From positions 1 to 62,640 of the IMG/VR virus record IMGVR_UViG_3300025652_000066: a DNA stretch of 62,640 nucleotides; one strand, written 5' to 3'. Origin of the DNA: a virus. Positions 6,932 through 58,378 of the stretch are shown one piece after another. The notes beneath the pieces were generated by a model that did not search any database, was not told the DNA's origin, and worked only from the letters and a program-made list of their open reading frames with translations. Every line of letters starts with the position of its first letter. Position 1 is the first letter of the stretch. Position numbers and translations under genes: made by a program.

Positions 6932-7151
6932 GCATAACCGCCTTGGTATCGTTTTGCTTCCTTATGACGAGCTTAGCGTTGGCAACAAGCTGGTTCTGCA
7001 CTATTTCAAGAGTACGCGCTAGAGCTGCTACATTTTGCTCTGCGATGACAGCCTTGGTGTACTGCTGCTTCGCTACCAAGCCCAGCGCTATGGCGCTACT
7101 TAGTGTTAGTGCAAAGCCCACTGCAGCTGCTTTACCAAACAACGAATTCAC
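6834..7151 (-). CDS. Rz: Rz-like inner-membrane spanin
   Basis: 105 residues from a GTG whose bases overlap the stop of the holin gene (GTGA). N-terminal signal-anchor (AVGFALTLSSAIALGLVA) followed by a periplasmic coiled coil (VIAEQNVAALARTLEIVQNQLVANAKLV). This is the i-spanin architecture; the partner o-spanin gene is nested in its 3' half. It works with holin and endolysin at the end of the lytic cycle. Confidence 0.82.
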   Translation of the reverse strand: MNSLFGKAAAVGFALTLSSAIALGLVAKQQYTKAVIAEQNVAALARTLEIVQNQLVANAKLVIRKQNDTKAVMHERNKLKADLRETPDDGCLDRRVPDAVLKLLR

Positions 7152-7348
7152 TTCGGCCCTGAGCTTGTGTAGAGACCGAATACTGCAGCACTTATCCCAA
7201 CAACTGTCGATACGAACGCAGCTTGCGTTGACGTGGGGAGTGCTAGCGCCATAAACCAGAATGACACTTCATAGAGTAACCACGAGTACCCGAGGATTAA
7301 TATCCTGGGCACTACGCGGTATTTGTTAAGTAGTTCGTGGAGAGGCAT
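7148..7348 (-). CDS. holin candidate
   Basis: 66 residues with two hydrophobic segments (about 15-35 RILILGYSWLLYEVSFWFMALAL region and 44-60 FVSTVVGISAAVFGLY) and a short polar C-terminus. Size, topology and position immediately upstream of the spanins make it the best holin candidate. It overlaps the Rz gene by four bases. No clear SD; it starts two bases after the upstream stop, so it is probably translated by re-initiation. Family not recognised. Confidence 0.65.
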   Translation of the reverse strand: MPLHELLNKYRVVPRILILGYSWLLYEVSFWFMALALPTSTQAAFVSTVVGISAAVFGLYTSSGPK

Positions 7349-50150: not shown

Positions 50151-50195
50151 ACGTGCCAGCAGAGCATGGCACTACATTGGTTTACCTATGTGTAC
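50151..50195 (+). repeat. 45-base leader repeat with covarying hairpin, copy 1
   Basis: Starts with hairpin GTGCCA-GCAGAGCA-TGGCAC, followed by a second stem, ACAT-T-GG-TTTA-CC-T-ATGT. Copy 2 at 51022-51066 is identical except for two changes, C to T and G to A, which face each other in the first stem. It ends about 37 bases before the start at 50232. Confidence 0.6.
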
Positions 50196-50468: not shown

Positions 50469-50490
50469 CGTTTCGGTCGCTAGTCTCTCA

Positions 50491-50520
50491 GCCTCAACAC
50501 TTCGGTGTTGGGGCTATTTT
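50491..50520 (+). terminator. intrinsic terminator
   Basis: Ten-pair stem GCCTCAACAC / GTGTTGGGGC with TTCG tetraloop and a following TATTTT. Ends the transcript of the gene at 50232. Confidence 0.8.
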
Positions 50521-50540
50521 GGTTTACCTATGTATAAGCA
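50519..50540 (+). repeat. partial third copy of the leader element
   Basis: TTGGTTTACCTATGT followed by ATAAGC matches the second half of the 45-base repeats at 50151 and 51022. It sits directly after the terminator and 28 bases before the start at 50568. Hairpin 1 is missing here. Confidence 0.5.
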
Positions 50541-50567
50541 CTTTCGCTTAATACTAGGAGTTCTACC

Positions 50568-50711
50568 ATGTTTTCATATCGTCAGTACAAAAAACAGCAA
50601 GCTAAGAACGAAGCAGTCTTCCGCATGGAAATATGCTTCATCTGTTTCATGGCGGGCTTGTTCGCCATGGATGCCTACTTGGGCAACTTCTACCTACTTG
50701 GAGGTGTGTAA
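50568..50711 (+). CDS. small single-TM protein
   Basis: 47 residues, MFSYRQYKKQQAKNEAVFRM then a hydrophobic segment (EICFICFMAGLFAMDAYLGNF). SD AGGAG. Overlaps the next ATG (TAATG), so the two small membrane proteins are made together. Unknown function. Confidence 0.6.
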   Translation: MFSYRQYKKQQAKNEAVFRMEICFICFMAGLFAMDAYLGNFYLLGGV

Positions 50712-50983
50712 TGGATATGTTTCTCCCTGGTATCATCAGCGGCATGGGCATACTCGTTGTGCTTATGCAGTTTGACTTTCGTAAGGTCCTTGGGTACTCG
50801 CTACTCATAGATATAGCAAGCACTGGTGGCTTGGCTTGGATCTTCTTGGGAACGTTCTCAGGAATGATGAGCGGCATCTTCGGTGGGCTCACCGTGTCGC
50901 TTGTCCTTGCCTTTAGCAAAAAGCTTCTTGGTTACAAAAAGCTCACTCGTGGTGGTTGGGTCTCACATCCGGCCACTTGGTAA
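50711..50983 (+). CDS. small polytopic membrane protein
   Basis: 90 residues from the ATG at 50711. Three hydrophobic segments (LPGIISGMGILVVLMQF, YSLLIDIASTGGLAWIFL, MMSGIFGGLTVSLVLAF) and a basic C-terminus. Translationally coupled to the upstream TM protein. Topology resembles small phage membrane proteins or holin-like proteins, but it is far from the lysis cluster. Function unknown. Confidence 0.65.
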   Translation: MDMFLPGIISGMGILVVLMQFDFRKVLGYSLLIDIASTGGLAWIFLGTFSGMMSGIFGGLTVSLVLAFSKKLLGYKKLTRGGWVSHPATW

Positions 50984-51021: not shown

Positions 51022-51066
51022 ACGTGTCAGCAGAGCATGACACTACATTGGTTTACCTATGTGTAC
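51022..51066 (+). repeat. 45-base leader repeat with covarying hairpin, copy 2
   Basis: Hairpin GTGTCA-GCAGAGCA-TGACAC plus the same downstream element as copy 1. The two differences from copy 1 are compensatory within the stem. A third small hairpin GTACC-AACTTC-GGTAC follows, then the start at 51100. Confidence 0.6.
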
Positions 51067-52373: not shown

Positions 52374-52380
52374 ATCCTAC

Positions 52381-52411
52381 AGCCCTAGCACTTCGGTGTT
52401 AGGGCTTTTTC
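52381..52411 (+). terminator. strong intrinsic terminator
   Basis: AGCCCTAGCAC / GTGTTAGGGCT (11 pairs, one G:T), TTCG loop, then TTTTTCT. Ends the 50232-52373 transcription block. Confidence 0.88.
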
Positions 52412-52540: not shown

Positions 52541-52908
52541 ATGCCCATAGCTTAAGCGTTGGTACATATAGCTTTAGTGCTATAATGGGCAGTAAATCTC
52601 GTACTTCGACGTTTACTCCTCCCATAGGGAACTATCACTCTTTTATTTTCTCTCTCCTTTCTTATATAGAAACTCTCTTAAATGTAGTGCCCTTAGTGCC
52701 CAGTAGTGTTTATATAATAATAATATAGAGAGGTAACAAGCACTTAACTAAGAAATAAGGCGGGCAATGAAGCGGGCATTGGTCTGGGCATGCATTTTAG
52801 TGGACAGTGATATTTGCCCCTATTTAGCACCCGACAGGTTTACCCTGTTTCCACAACCCCCTTTATAACCCTACTCTAAGTAAGGGTGCTAAGCTTAAAT
52901 CACTGCCC
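52541..52908. other. candidate replication origin: GGGCA/TGCCC iterons around AT-rich DNA
   Basis: The pentamer GGGCA or its complement occurs nine times in 367 bases: 52542, 52587, 52688, 52697, 52762, 52774, 52786, 52815 and 52904. Fewer than one would be expected by chance. Several are longer matches (AGTGCCC twice in tandem 9 bases apart, GCGGGCA twice 12 apart). They flank an AT-only-like patch at 52708-52735 (TTTATATAATAATAATATAG). Iterons beside an unwinding element are typical of origins. It lies just upstream of the replication operon. Confidence 0.45.
52559..52586 (+). promoter_or_regulatory. extended -10 sigma70-type promoter
   Basis: TTGGTA (52559-52564), 16-base spacer, then TGC-TATAAT with TATAAT at 52581-52586. 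This is the best-scoring promoter I see in the window. It reads toward the + strand operon from 52955. The leader after it has the hairpin AGTAAA..TCG-TACTT-CGA..TTTACT (52591-52617). Confidence 0.72.
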
Positions 52909-53250: not shown

Positions 53251-53412
53251 ATGAAAGCAACAATCAAACGACTTCCCCGAATCCATCCCAGCGAGCATCT
53301 TGATGCGGTGAAGGTAAGCGTCATGTACTTCCGTTGTAGGATGGCGTTCAATAAAACGTGCGTCTCAAACAGCCGCTACCGCGAGTTTAGGGAGCTAATC
53401 AAAGATGCTTAA
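53251..53412 (+). CDS. small KATIKR-family protein, copy 1
   Basis: 53 residues from ATG 53251 (SD AAGGACGGGA). Starts MKATIKRLPRIHP and ends LIKDA. First of six related ORFs that share an N-terminal (L)KAxIKRxP strand, a basic middle and, in most, a closing I(K/R)DA or KEA. Overlaps the next by eight bases through GATGCTTAA, in which ATG and TAA interlock. Confidence 0.65.
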   Translation: MKATIKRLPRIHPSEHLDAVKVSVMYFRCRMAFNKTCVSNSRYREFRELIKDA

Positions 53413-53557
53413 AGCAAAACTTAAACGCCAACCAGCCTACAACGACGACGGCATCCCGCTCCGTAAGTTCAGATTCTGGAAAGAGCAATACTACTTTGAC
53501 AAAAGGATGATAAGCGTTGGAGACAGCGTCACAGAATACTGGAGGATCCTGCAATGA
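53405..53557 (+). CDS. small KATIKR-family protein, copy 2
   Basis: 50 residues, MLKAKLKRQPAYNDDGIPLRKFRFWKEQ ending EYWRILQ. Its start is interlocked with the stop of copy 1. It keeps the N-terminal strand but its end differs, and it overlaps copy 3 by four bases (ATGA). Confidence 0.62.
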   Translation: MLKAKLKRQPAYNDDGIPLRKFRFWKEQYYFDKRMISVGDSVTEYWRILQ

Positions 53558-53772
53558 AGCAACACCGTTCGCCCTCACGCCGTATAGAAAGTAAGCTCCT
53601 TAAAGCTACAATTAAACGTATTCCACTAGACACAAGTAACAAACCAAAAGCTAAGGAGCCGTTGACTACGTATGCACGCTTCCAGTTCAGCATTCTCGAC
53701 TACCCGCCATACATAACAGTCAGCAATCAGTCGATGGTGTATAACTACACAGGAGTAATCAGAGATGCTTAA
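53554..53772 (+). CDS. small KATIKR-family protein, copy 3 with N-terminal extension
   Basis: 72 residues. A 15-residue basic extension MKQHRSPSRRIESKL precedes the family core LKATIKRIPLDTSNKP, followed by TTYARFQFSILDYPPYITVSNQSM and the end VIRDA. No ATG lies at the core start, so the extension appears real. Confidence 0.62.
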   Translation: MKQHRSPSRRIESKLLKATIKRIPLDTSNKPKAKEPLTTYARFQFSILDYPPYITVSNQSMVYNYTGVIRDA

Positions 53773-53962
53773 AGCTATAATTAAACGTATTCCATTACAA
53801 GAGCTCTTGCCTGATCAACCCAGAAGTGTAGGCCTAACAACATTCAAGCTATGTATACCTAGAACCAGACAGATGAGCATTATATGGTCCCCAGTTGCGT
53901 CCGATTTCATGTATGAAGACTCAATAGAAATACGACTGTGGAGGATACTCAGAGATGCTTAA
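53765..53962 (+). CDS. small KATIKR-family protein, copy 4
   Basis: 65 residues, MLKAIIKRIPLQELLPDQPRSVGLTTFKLCIPRTRQMSIIW ending RILRDA. Starts and ends in the same GATGCTTAA interlock as copies 1 and 5. The shared pattern is basic strand, TTFKL-type strand, variable strand, C-terminal helix. Confidence 0.65.
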   Translation: MLKAIIKRIPLQELLPDQPRSVGLTTFKLCIPRTRQMSIIWSPVASDFMYEDSIEIRLWRILRDA

Positions 53963-54152
53963 AGCCACGATCAAACGCGTCCCTGATGACACCGCCTGGA
54001 TGAACCGCTATTACCCGGGTAATAGCGGCAGTTCCCTAGGAACAACCAGATTCAGATTGACTGTATTCGCTAGCGATTACAAAGCCGTGGTATACCCCAC
54101 CCACGGGTTCTCAACTCAGCGAGCGCTAAAGGATATCCTCAAAGAGGCTTAA
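53955..54152 (+). CDS. small KATIKR-family protein, copy 5
   Basis: 65 residues, MLKATIKRVPDDTAWMNRYYPGNSGSSLGTTRFRLTVFASDYKAVVYP ending LKDILKEA. Best example of the family: three beta strands then a helix. An inverted repeat GCTATTACCCGGGTAATAGC at 54008-54027 lies within the gene. Confidence 0.65.
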   Translation: MLKATIKRVPDDTAWMNRYYPGNSGSSLGTTRFRLTVFASDYKAVVYPTHGFSTQRALKDILKEA

Positions 54153-54162
54153 AACACACAAC

Positions 54163-54182
54163 CATATTAAAGGAATAATATG
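54163..54182 (+). promoter_or_regulatory. AAGGAA-loop hairpin holding SD and start codon
   Basis: CATATTA-AAGGAA-TAATATG: seven perfect pairs with the SD in the loop and the ATG of the 54180 gene in the 3' arm. Opens only when unpaired; CsrA-type presentation. Confidence 0.55.
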
Positions 54183-54374
54183 TCAAGCAATATGTCAACA
54201 AGGACGAGCACTAGCGCTACACAAGGCTACGGACATGCAACGAATTACGAGTCATCAGGGTTAGTCTTTAGAACTATCTGCCCTGCATGCAAGACAGCGA
54301 AGAAACCGGGCACAAGCCACCCGCGCTGCTCACCGATACTAAAACGAATGCGAGCCGACGGAGAGCTAGGATGA
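54180..54374 (+). CDS. small zinc-finger-like protein
   Basis: 64 residues. N-terminal Ser/Thr-rich tail (MSSNMSTRTSTSATQGYG), then CPACKTAKKPGTSHPRCSPILKRM, a C-x2-C...H-x2-C metal-binding pattern. Interrupts the KATIKR array and overlaps copy 6 by four bases. No family recognised. Confidence 0.62.
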   Translation: MSSNMSTRTSTSATQGYGHATNYESSGLVFRTICPACKTAKKPGTSHPRCSPILKRMRADGELG

Positions 54375-54610
54375 AAGCAGTCATCAAACGATTCCCCCAA
54401 GACAGCAACTGGATGGCAGATCGCGAAAAAGATAACTCTTCCGTGTTTATGTACGGAGTCGCACGGAAAGATAACTCTTCCGTGTTTATGTACGGAGTCG
54501 CACAGGAAGAAAGCGGCGAGTATATAAGACTATTCATAACCGACACTACGTACCGAGTACATCACCACAGACTTGCTTTAATAATTAACCCCCCTGCTGT
54601 ACGCAGATAA
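54371..54610 (+). CDS. small KATIKR-family protein, copy 6, with in-frame duplication
   Basis: 79 residues from ATG 54371, [24 protein letters not shown] onward. The segment [12 protein letters not shown] is present twice in tandem by a 39-base in-frame duplication. The C-terminus [22 protein letters not shown] resembles the strand-helix part of the family. Confidence 0.62.
54431..54503 (+). repeat. 39-base tandem duplication
   Basis: Two copies starting at 54431 and 54470, identical over at least 34 bases. 39 bases is 13 codons, so the frame is kept. The identity suggests a recent event. Confidence 0.85.
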
Positions 54611-54834: not shown

Positions 54835-54848
54835 ATGCAAGGATGCGT
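54835..54848 (+). promoter_or_regulatory. AGGA-loop hairpin over SD
   Basis: ATGCA-AGGA-TGCGT (five pairs, one G:T) directly upstream of the ATG at 54850 and immediately after csrA copy 2. Confidence 0.45.
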
Positions 54849-54849
54849 A

Positions 54850-55380
54850 ATGGTAAAAACACCCTCTATCAATTCTCTAGCTCAGGCTAACGGCATCTCA
54901 AGACAAGTCTTGGCATACCGCCGAAAACTGAATCCTGACGCACCGATGAACGAGCTTGTTTACCCACCACGCAGTAGAAGCGTACGTAGCTTTAACTTCA
55001 TTGGGGACAAAGAGCAGTACACTGTCACTGAGCTGGCCAGAGCGTATAACGTGCCAAGACGCACACTTGACACACGCATTACTCGCAACCCCGATGCACT
55101 CATAGAAGACTTACTCTATCCACCTTGTGCAACACCGCACCGAGTCCTCAAGCGGTATATAGCTAAAGACCTACAACCTGAGGTAGTCAAGCCTAAAAAG
55201 CCAAGACGTAAGCCTAACCCACGACCCGATCCGCCACCCTTCTCAGAAGACTACGAGACACTCAACAGGATTCGATCGTATAGAAAAGCAGGAATGAGCG
55301 AAGACGAAATCATGTTCAAACTCAAAATGATAAGCCGCTGGGACAAAACACCCTCGCCTTATGCCGACTACTTATTCTAA
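54850..55380 (+). CDS. tandem HTH DNA-binding protein
   Basis: 176 residues from ATG 54850 (an in-frame ATG at 54835 lies inside the SD hairpin). Two copies of one HTH module: INSLAQANGISRQVLAYRRKLNPDAPMNELVYPP and VTELARAYNVPRRTLDTRITRNPDALIEDLLYPP, spaced about 58 residues apart. A Pro/Lys linker (KPKKPRRKPNPRPDPPP) and a C-terminal helix pair follow. Likely a transcription regulator or replication initiator that binds paired sites; the iterons upstream are possible targets. Confidence 0.72.
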   Translation: MVKTPSINSLAQANGISRQVLAYRRKLNPDAPMNELVYPPRSRSVRSFNFIGDKEQYTVTELARAYNVPRRTLDTRITRNPDALIEDLLYPPCATPHRVLKRYIAKDLQPEVVKPKKPRRKPNPRPDPPPFSEDYETLNRIRSYRKAGMSEDEIMFKLKMISRWDKTPSPYADYLF

Positions 55381-55897: not shown

Positions 55898-58378
55898 ATG
55901 ACTTTAAACGTCACATTCTTAGAACCCACAGCTCATAATGCTAAAGCCTCAAAACGTTTCTTCCTTGATACGACAGGCAAGATAGACTCAGACTACATTA
56001 CGGGCGCGTTCTTCACATCCCATCAAGAAACCCATTTATCTTTAAAGGACTTCTATGTCTCAATTAAAGAGCACGCCTCCACCTTCCACGCCTTGCTTAA
56101 AGGCAACGTTACACGGCAGATCACAAATGATCGCCGACGTGGTACGACACGTACCACAGACGAAACCAACTGGATCGTCTTTGACGTGGATGGCCTTGCT
56201 GATGTGTCTTCAGCCGAAGAATTTATGAAGGACCTAGGTTATGGCGACGTTGAATACATCATCCAATACTCCGCTTCAAGTGGCGTTAACCCAGACAAAG
56301 GGCTCAGTTGCCATATTATGGCGAAGCTCGACCAGTATTACCCCGCGCCTCTTCTTAAAGAGTGGCTTAAGGACATCAATCTGTCACAGAGATCTCTACG
56401 AGCTCAAATCTCTCTTACGAAAACAAATGCTTCGCTGTCTTGGCCACTAGACATCACCACCTGTCAGAACGATAAGCTAATATTTATATCACCCCCGGAG
56501 GTAACTGAAGGTGTTGAAGACAACTTTAAAGGGCAAAGAATCATTTATCACGAGGGCACTATTCCTTTCATTACACCCGTTATCAAAGACGGGCTTACTG
56601 AACTTAATAAGTTCGCCACAGAGAAAACTATCTCCGAATTACGCGAAGGTATGGGCCTCCCGAAAAAGAGATTTAGCACTACGCTCCACTCCTCAGGTGT
56701 TGAGGTTCTCAAAGGCGTCTCAAACGCGCAGATAACAGGGGTCAAGTTCGATGGCGAATACGTACGTATTAACCTCAACGGCGGGGACTCATGGGCCTAT
56801 TACCATCCAGTTACCGACTCTTCCATACTTTTTAACTTCAAAGGCGAGGCAAACTACCTCATTAAAGAACTTGATCCGGATTATTTTACAGCCTCTCAAG
56901 CGGCGTGCTCAGAGGCAAAAAAGTCCGAGGCCATAGAGAGGCAAGACGCCTATCTCAGGGATGCCAAGCTTGGCGTAGTGCATACAGCAGTACGCGACGC
57001 GGTTACGGACAAGTACTACGCAGTCACTTGGGATCATGGCACCAAAACTTTAGAAGCTAATAAGATACTGACTAAAGATAGGATCAATGACTTTCTCCAC
57101 GACCATGAACTACCAGAAATGGAGCACGTACCGACGTGGGATATTTCGCATAATCTACAATCCGACATCCAATTTGATATTGAAAGTAGACAAGTTAACC
57201 TGTATGCGGCTCCAAAACTCTTGGTACGGGGGAACAGGCCTTTGGTCACCGCACCTCCGCCGGCGATCCACACCTTAATAAGTCACCTTATGGCGGAAGA
57301 CAAAGAATCTGTTGCTCATTTCTATAACTGGATAGCGTCAATCGTTCAGTTCCGAACCACTCCTAAAACATCATGGGTATTACATGGCACACAAGGCACT
57401 GGTAAAGGTTTATTGTTCACAGAAATCCTTGCACCTCTATTTGGTAAAGCTGCCATTAAGAAACCCTATCTTGACTTCGAAGACAAGTTCAATTCCCAGC
57501 TCGCATCCGCGCTTCTCGTCTTTGTGGATGAAGTGTCTAATGAACCGGGCTCTCGAAAAATCCTCCAGAAGCTAAAAACATACATCACCGACGAAGAGCT
57601 TTCATCGCGTGCAATGGGTATTGAATCTACGTATGCAGCAATGCATGCAGCGTTCATCTTCACGTCGAACAACTTAGACATCATGCTCTTAGAAGAAGGC
57701 GATCGCCGCTTTAATATACCGCCTAGACAAGAACGACAGCTTCAGGCGGTGTTACCAGGCAACGATACGTTTAAGTTTGTAGAACAAATCCAGCTCGAGC
57801 TTGAAGACTTCGCTAACTTCTTACACGCATATGAAGTCGATGAGCTTAAAGCCGCGCGTCCTATGGACAACGAAGCGAAAGCGACCTTAATGAGCATCAA
57901 CGAGACGACGATAAGCGCTTATTGCAATGCCATTAAGAGTGGAGATTTACCGTATCTAGCAGCCGCTATACCTATCTCCATTACAGACAGCACTAAGAAT
58001 AGTGTGCACTTTGTGGACCCATTAGAAACCAAGTATTTAAACGTAATCGAAGCCATTATGGATAGATTACCAACAACAGGATTCGATGCAGCAGGTAACA
58101 ATCTTGCTGCAGTGAAGCTAGAAAGTGATGACTTACAAAGTCTTTATAACTTTATAGCAGGCGGTAAACGCCAAACGCAAGCGAAGTTCAACAAGATGTT
58201 GGAACACCAACAGCTGTTCGTTAATCGCATGCGTATCAATGGCCCTAAACGTACGGGCCTGGAGATCAACTTTAAGTATAACGAGTTAGATATGATATCT
58301 ATCAGAAAGATGCTGCTAGGCGACTCCCAAATCAGCACGACTTATCATCGAGGACAACACTCGGCTTCGAGCCATTAA
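55898..58378 (+). CDS. replicative primase-helicase (AEP-like N-terminus, SF3/D5 helicase, DUF5906)
   Basis: 826 residues. The N-terminal third has a primase-like acidic pattern (NWIVFDVDGLADVSS, a later IIQYSASSGVNPDKGLSCHIM). The helicase part carries Walker A GTQGTGKG at 497-504, Walker B LLVFVDEVS near 545 and sensor FIFTSNN near 588, the SF3/D5 layout of DUF5906 phage primase-helicases. It would unwind and prime DNA at the origin for the family A polymerase. SD AAGGAAG. A 198-base gap before it has no clear promoter. Confidence 0.9.
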   Translation: MTLNVTFLEPTAHNAKASKRFFLDTTGKIDSDYITGAFFTSHQETHLSLKDFYVSIKEHASTFHALLKGNVTRQITNDRRRGTTRTTDETNWIVFDVDGLADVSSAEEFMKDLGYGDVEYIIQYSASSGVNPDKGLSCHIMAKLDQYYPAPLLKEWLKDINLSQRSLRAQISLTKTNASLSWPLDITTCQNDKLIFISPPEVTEGVEDNFKGQRIIYHEGTIPFITPVIKDGLTELNKFATEKTISELREGMGLPKKRFSTTLHSSGVEVLKGVSNAQITGVKFDGEYVRINLNGGDSWAYYHPVTDSSILFNFKGEANYLIKELDPDYFTASQAACSEAKKSEAIERQDAYLRDAKLGVVHTAVRDAVTDKYYAVTWDHGTKTLEANKILTKDRINDFLHDHELPEMEHVPTWDISHNLQSDIQFDIESRQVNLYAAPKLLVRGNRPLVTAPPPAIHTLISHLMAEDKESVAHFYNWIASIVQFRTTPKTSWVLHGTQGTGKGLLFTEILAPLFGKAAIKKPYLDFEDKFNSQLASALLVFVDEVSNEPGSRKILQKLKTYITDEELSSRAMGIESTYAAMHAAFIFTSNNLDIMLLEEGDRRFNIPPRQERQLQAVLPGNDTFKFVEQIQLELEDFANFLHAYEVDELKAARPMDNEAKATLMSINETTISAYCNAIKSGDLPYLAAAIPISITDSTKNSVHFVDPLETKYLNVIEAIMDRLPTTGFDAAGNNLAAVKLESDDLQSLYNFIAGGKRQTQAKFNKMLEHQQLFVNRMRINGPKRTGLEINFKYNELDMISIRKMLLGDSQISTTYHRGQHSASSH

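Follow-up and report, generated by a model that had tools for sequence, protein, structure and literature searches.

Our analysis uncovered, in an uncultured, KPP25-like phage, an array of six small genes that, judged from its sequence, is an old, translationally coupled tandem family in which a constant head is joined to a variable body. The window, that is, the whole stretch analyzed, is the 62,640-base IMG/VR record IMGVR_UViG_3300025652_000066, which a classification tool assigns to viruses. Its leftward genes include those coding for the terminase, portal and major head protein, and its rightward genes, from ~49.7 kb onward, code for small proteins, an HNH-like protein, CsrA, a DUF5906 primase, an exonuclease and an ATPase. 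By the primase, the closest cultured relatives are the Pseudomonas phages KPP25 and phiR18 (33% identity over 97%); further IMG/VR contigs, mostly fragments, encode capsid proteins 100%, 93%, 87%, 83% and 71% identical to that of the window. The array lies between the HNH gene and the phage csrA, upstream of the primase (Table 1). Promoter-like sites of the kind listed there are no more numerous than in shuffled sequences.

Table 1. Features of the array and its flanks, with positions in the window
Feature	Position	Strand	Remarks
Promoter-like site TTGGTA-16-TATAAT, extended -10	52559..52586	+	upstream of operon; consensus match only
HNH-endonuclease-like gene, 83 aa	52955..53206	+	phrog_99, E=1e-11; first gene before array
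Copy 1, 53 aa, MKATIKRLP...LIKDA	53251..53412	+	overlaps copy 2 by ATGCTTAA
Copy 2, 50 aa, MLKAKLKRQP...WRILQ	53405..53557	+	ATGA overlap with copy 3
Copy 3, 72 aa, ends VIRDA	53554..53772	+	overlaps copy 4 by ATGCTTAA
Copy 4, 65 aa, MLKAIIKRIP...ILRDA	53765..53962	+	overlaps copy 5 by ATGCTTAA
Copy 5, 65 aa, MLKATIKRVP...ILKEA	53955..54152	+	terminal GAGGCTTAA without next start
Interrupting ORF, 64 aa, CPxC...HPxC, zinc-finger-like	54180..54374	+	phrog_6887 at E=0.01 only
Copy 6, 79 aa	54371..54610	+	ATGA overlap with zinc-finger ORF; C-terminus unrelated
39-nt in-frame tandem duplication inside copy 6	54428..54505	+	97% identical
csrA, 59 aa	54648..54827	+	directly 3' of array; NCBIfam NF002469, 87.8 bits (cut-off 73)
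HTH-like gene	54835-55380		beside csrA and primase
DUF5906 primase/helicase-type replication gene	55898..58378	+	KPP25 ORF056 homologue

The region at 53251-54610 comprises six ORFs of one family, with 53, 50, 72, 65, 65 and 79 residues; an earlier note on this DNA had described a tandem array of six ORFs of 50-79 residues, a zinc-finger-like ORF breaking the series and a further duplication within copy 6, and all three were found in place. The N-terminus of every copy takes the form (M)(L)KAx[I/L]KRxP. In copy 3 it follows only after an extension: the copy's own ATG is mutated to CTC, its ORF starts 42 nt before that codon, and translation must begin at 53554, placing a 15-residue N-terminal extension before LKATIKRIP. 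The possibility that this extension is the remnant of a lost seventh copy was rejected, the resemblance of ATGAAGCAACA to ATGAAAGCAACA being non-significant (P=0.12). All six copies are basic (pI 9.5-10.1), part of the charge being due to the shared motif itself, and pI values of 4.1 to 10.4 are seen among the products of neighboring small genes. The coding score is best in the copy's own frame for five of the six. Copies 1 and 2 also occur in an independent contig, L029 (99.96% identity), which confirms them, the first without any difference; it stops at window position 53584, ~10 nt before the conserved block of copy 3, and copies 3-6 rest on one assembly.

The copies are linked by overlaps at five of the six internal junctions, the exception being a 27-nt gap between copy 5 and the zinc-finger-like ORF. 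Three junctions present the same 8-nt ATGCTTAA overlap within a 9-nt sequence, GATGCTTAA (53404-53412, 53764-53772 and 53954-53962), just as had been claimed, and the copy 2/copy 3 and zinc-finger/copy 6 junctions are instead ATGA overlaps. The ATGCTTAA junctions have a Shine-Dalgarno-like site of GGAG type ~9-11 nt before the ATG, where the upstream gene still encodes its C-terminus; overlapping stop and start codons together with such a site in the upstream gene are what is expected of a translationally coupled operon. These signals belong to the next gene but sit in the upstream C-terminal codons, and hence part of the shared C-terminus is imposed by them. The further proposal that the unit of duplication includes the coupling signal is supported at these three junctions, and the copy 2/copy 3 junction and the end of copy 5, whose GAGGCTTAA tail has no start codon, carry altered forms.

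Upstream of the array, TTGGTTTACCTATGTRTA occurs in three copies (50151-50195, 50514-50543 and 51022-51066), where 0.14 are expected. Two of these are preceded by an inverted repeat, GTGCCA..TGGCAC or GTGTCA..TGACAC, which differ by a compensating pair of changes, and the third follows a terminator-like hairpin; the repeats are possibly a phage promoter/operator or a processing site. In L029 the two versions of the inverted repeat are swapped between sites relative to the window (50156, 50169, 51027 and 51040), which suggests recombination or mis-assembly between the repeats. Two terminator-like hairpins with a CACTTCGGTGTT apex, at 50489-50519 and 52380-52410, are 84% identical over 31 nt.

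The similarity between copies rises above chance at their ends only. Across ten residues, the six N-termini have a mean pair score of 28.3, whereas 20,000 null draws on the window's other ORFs average -8.3 and never exceed 2.0 (P<5e-5); this bears out the shared N-terminus for all six copies. The C-terminal ending that had been noted for most of the copies is borne out for copies 1, 3, 4 and 5 (score 11.2 versus a null of -10.7, P<5e-5); copy 2 retains WRIL and lacks the final DA, and copy 6 lacks the shared C-terminus. With the last three residues left out, as largely dictated by the overlap, this similarity still stands at P=0.005; the resemblance extends to copy 5, whose tail has no start. 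The middles are as strongly diverged as had been noted: their similarity is not above that of shuffled sequences, the sole hint, between copies 4 and 5, having P=0.016 in 15 tests, and copies 5 and 6 share a few residues past the motif (D..WM). DNA identity by position likewise drops to background soon after the 5' block; between copies 3 and 4 an identity of 89% extends for 35 nt and gives way to background beyond. The copies were not flagged at 1e-3 by blastp among the small ORFs of the window, a sign of how short the shared region is. The bodies would have diverged past recognition or else been replaced.

If the N-terminal block were merely a recently copied DNA element, its synonymous positions would be expected to match. 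They match no more often than at random: the codons for the invariant Ala, Arg and Pro are identical in 4, 3 and 4 of the 15 pairs, respectively, where fully saturated sites would give 4.0, 3.0 and 4.9 (pooled, 11 of 45 versus 11.9), and hence a recent DNA repeat was rejected. In the block dN is 0.06-0.45, and dS is zero for copies 3 and 4 only. The Lys codons are all AAA, above expectation, perhaps because A-rich codons are preferred early in the gene. Because the synonymous sites are saturated while the residues are invariant, it is selection on the protein that preserves the head motif; together with the retention of the block in frame in copy 3, despite the lost start codon, this points to old duplications with the motif maintained at the protein level.

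No known family could be attached to these proteins, in agreement with the earlier note. PHROGs, Pfam, NCBIfam and PDB sequences gave no match; tblastn with copies 1, 3, 5 and 6 at E<=10 against a phage collection of ~50,000 records returned only chance-level matches. DNA-pattern scans of viral and genome contigs recovered, beyond the near-identical L029, unrelated ORFs, and the motif-pattern matches in dUTPase-like and Mesorhizobium genes were discarded as such. AlphaFold2 models built with the six-row paralogue alignment reached pLDDT 57 (copy 5) and 52 (copy 4), which is too poor to read beyond the C-terminal helix in which both end, and Foldseek with the copy 5 model, not interpretable at that pLDDT, found no match at E<=0.001. 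The literature likewise yielded no report of the family.

A comparison of copy number across related phages, as the earlier note had proposed, met with no second array. Neither a profile of the six copies run against 16,623 ORFs of the loci analyzed nor an examination of ~100 related loci revealed a convincing homologue, and a scan of 306 locus-strands for runs of this kind recovered only two others, both unrelated. Between a conserved membrane-protein gene (50633-50983 in the window) and the primase, 19 of 31 loci have an interval of 1.4-4.0 kb with other small genes inside, and several more distant relatives have other replication genes there. The KPP25-like relatives that cover this interval have no ORF run with the array N-terminus, and the nearest relatives (capsid 83-93%) are fragments not reaching it. 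The Kochitakasuvirus KPP25-like phages KPP25 and phiR18 likewise have small hypothetical genes packed in upstream of their primase, but unlike in the window there is no KAxIKRxP gene and no tandem family among them. The array thus appears to be lineage-specific within the data searched, and its absence upstream of the primase in these relatives indicates that it was inserted into an accessory interval. L119, a relative that lacks the array, has csrA (7140-7322) directly upstream of the primase, and in the window csrA lies a few genes upstream of the primase; the array may hence have entered, or grown, upstream of an already existing csrA-primase block. Homologues of csrA are present in several other related loci too.

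Small ORFs with shared N-termini also occur in other contigs. Three in a related phage contig (L100, 6330-7798) begin with MTFDEWW, and in two the likeness extends through at least residue 25; the three resemble the array in having several small ORFs with a common N-terminal motif, but the motif is another one and the genes are spread over ~1.5 kb without overlapping. A 118.7-kb viral contig (L045, 12488-14539, minus strand) has three with an MTLxxLWKRR-like sequence at or near the N-terminus.

As to function, our best guess, resting on the pattern of the array and its csrA neighbor, is anti-defense or host takeover, and we hold such a host-directed role only tentatively, at somewhat short of even probability. 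Translation of the array would be coupled from gene to gene within the rightward operon on the replication side, and its products, to go by strand and operon position, would act early in infection. The head, probably a beta strand, would serve all copies as a structural or docking segment, and the choice of target would fall to the variable body, such that duplication and divergence yield a panel of related inhibitors or adaptors against host targets in defense or takeover. The proposal as a whole, that of a lineage-specific, coupled family of small basic proteins forming such a panel, we likewise favor with less than even confidence. Paralogy, coupling and fast divergence are each supported by the above results, and a nearly constant head on middles that have changed so much is as expected of fast-evolving phage accessory proteins. 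Counting against the proposal, the copies might have only their ends in common, with bodies that are non-homologous inserts. No homologue among known inhibitors turned up in the databases and phage records searched. Since phage RsmA/CsrA has been suggested to suppress CRISPR-Cas (PMC8450108), the csrA gene right after the array is compatible with an anti-defense setting and modestly helps this reading, although the array proteins themselves are not CsrA-like; it is weak evidence, because csrA also stands next to the primase without the array in L119. A parallel is offered by archaeal viruses, in which early-expressed anti-defense genes are marked by a shared regulatory sequence (PMC11065993). 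Both comprise many small diverse genes with one repeated control element, which in the archaeal viruses is a conserved regulatory sequence with a strong promoter, whereas in the array it is a repeated translation junction accompanied by codons conserved at the protein level.

Alternatively, the copies might serve the phage itself as small, basic accessory proteins that bind nucleic acid or assist replication or transcription; selection for dosage would have multiplied them, their sequences would be drifting, and the host would not be a target. Their uniform basicity and their neighbors csrA, the HTH-like gene and the primase would fit this, but dosage selection does not predict bodies diverged beyond recognition, and no DNA-binding family was matched; we regard it as a serious but unlikely contender. 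Rather unlikely, too, are modular cassettes, in which the shared junction (Shine-Dalgarno, overlapped stop/start and nine codons) serves as recombination homology for swapping unrelated small genes with no full-length paralogy. The similarity does end abruptly after codon 9, the middles are no better than chance, the Shine-Dalgarno of each next gene lies inside the C-terminal codons of the one before, and copies 3 and 4 fall to background past their 35 nt. However, saturation of the synonymous sites between most copies leaves no recently shared DNA linker, the C-terminal similarity extends past the overlap-dictated residues and is kept in copy 5 without an overlapping start, and the block persists within the start-less copy 3. 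That the array consists of decaying tandem duplicates with little function remaining is improbable: the start of copy 3, the last two residues of copy 2 and the start following copy 5 are gone, and the internal duplication of copy 6 is recent, but six frames remain open, the motif is invariant under synonymous saturation, copy 3 has a replacement start and the copy 6 duplication keeps the frame. A head fixed as a KAxIKRxP dock for one host or phage partner, to which tandemly diversified bodies bring different targets, with the junction copied per unit, is more doubtful still.

Overlapping junctions duplicated along with the gene are one way for a phage to keep diverging paralogues co-expressed. 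A nine-residue head under strong protein-level selection, with the rest diverged, makes a concrete target for mutagenesis and pull-down, and inhibitors yet to be recognized are likely to be found among tandem orphan families of very small phage genes.
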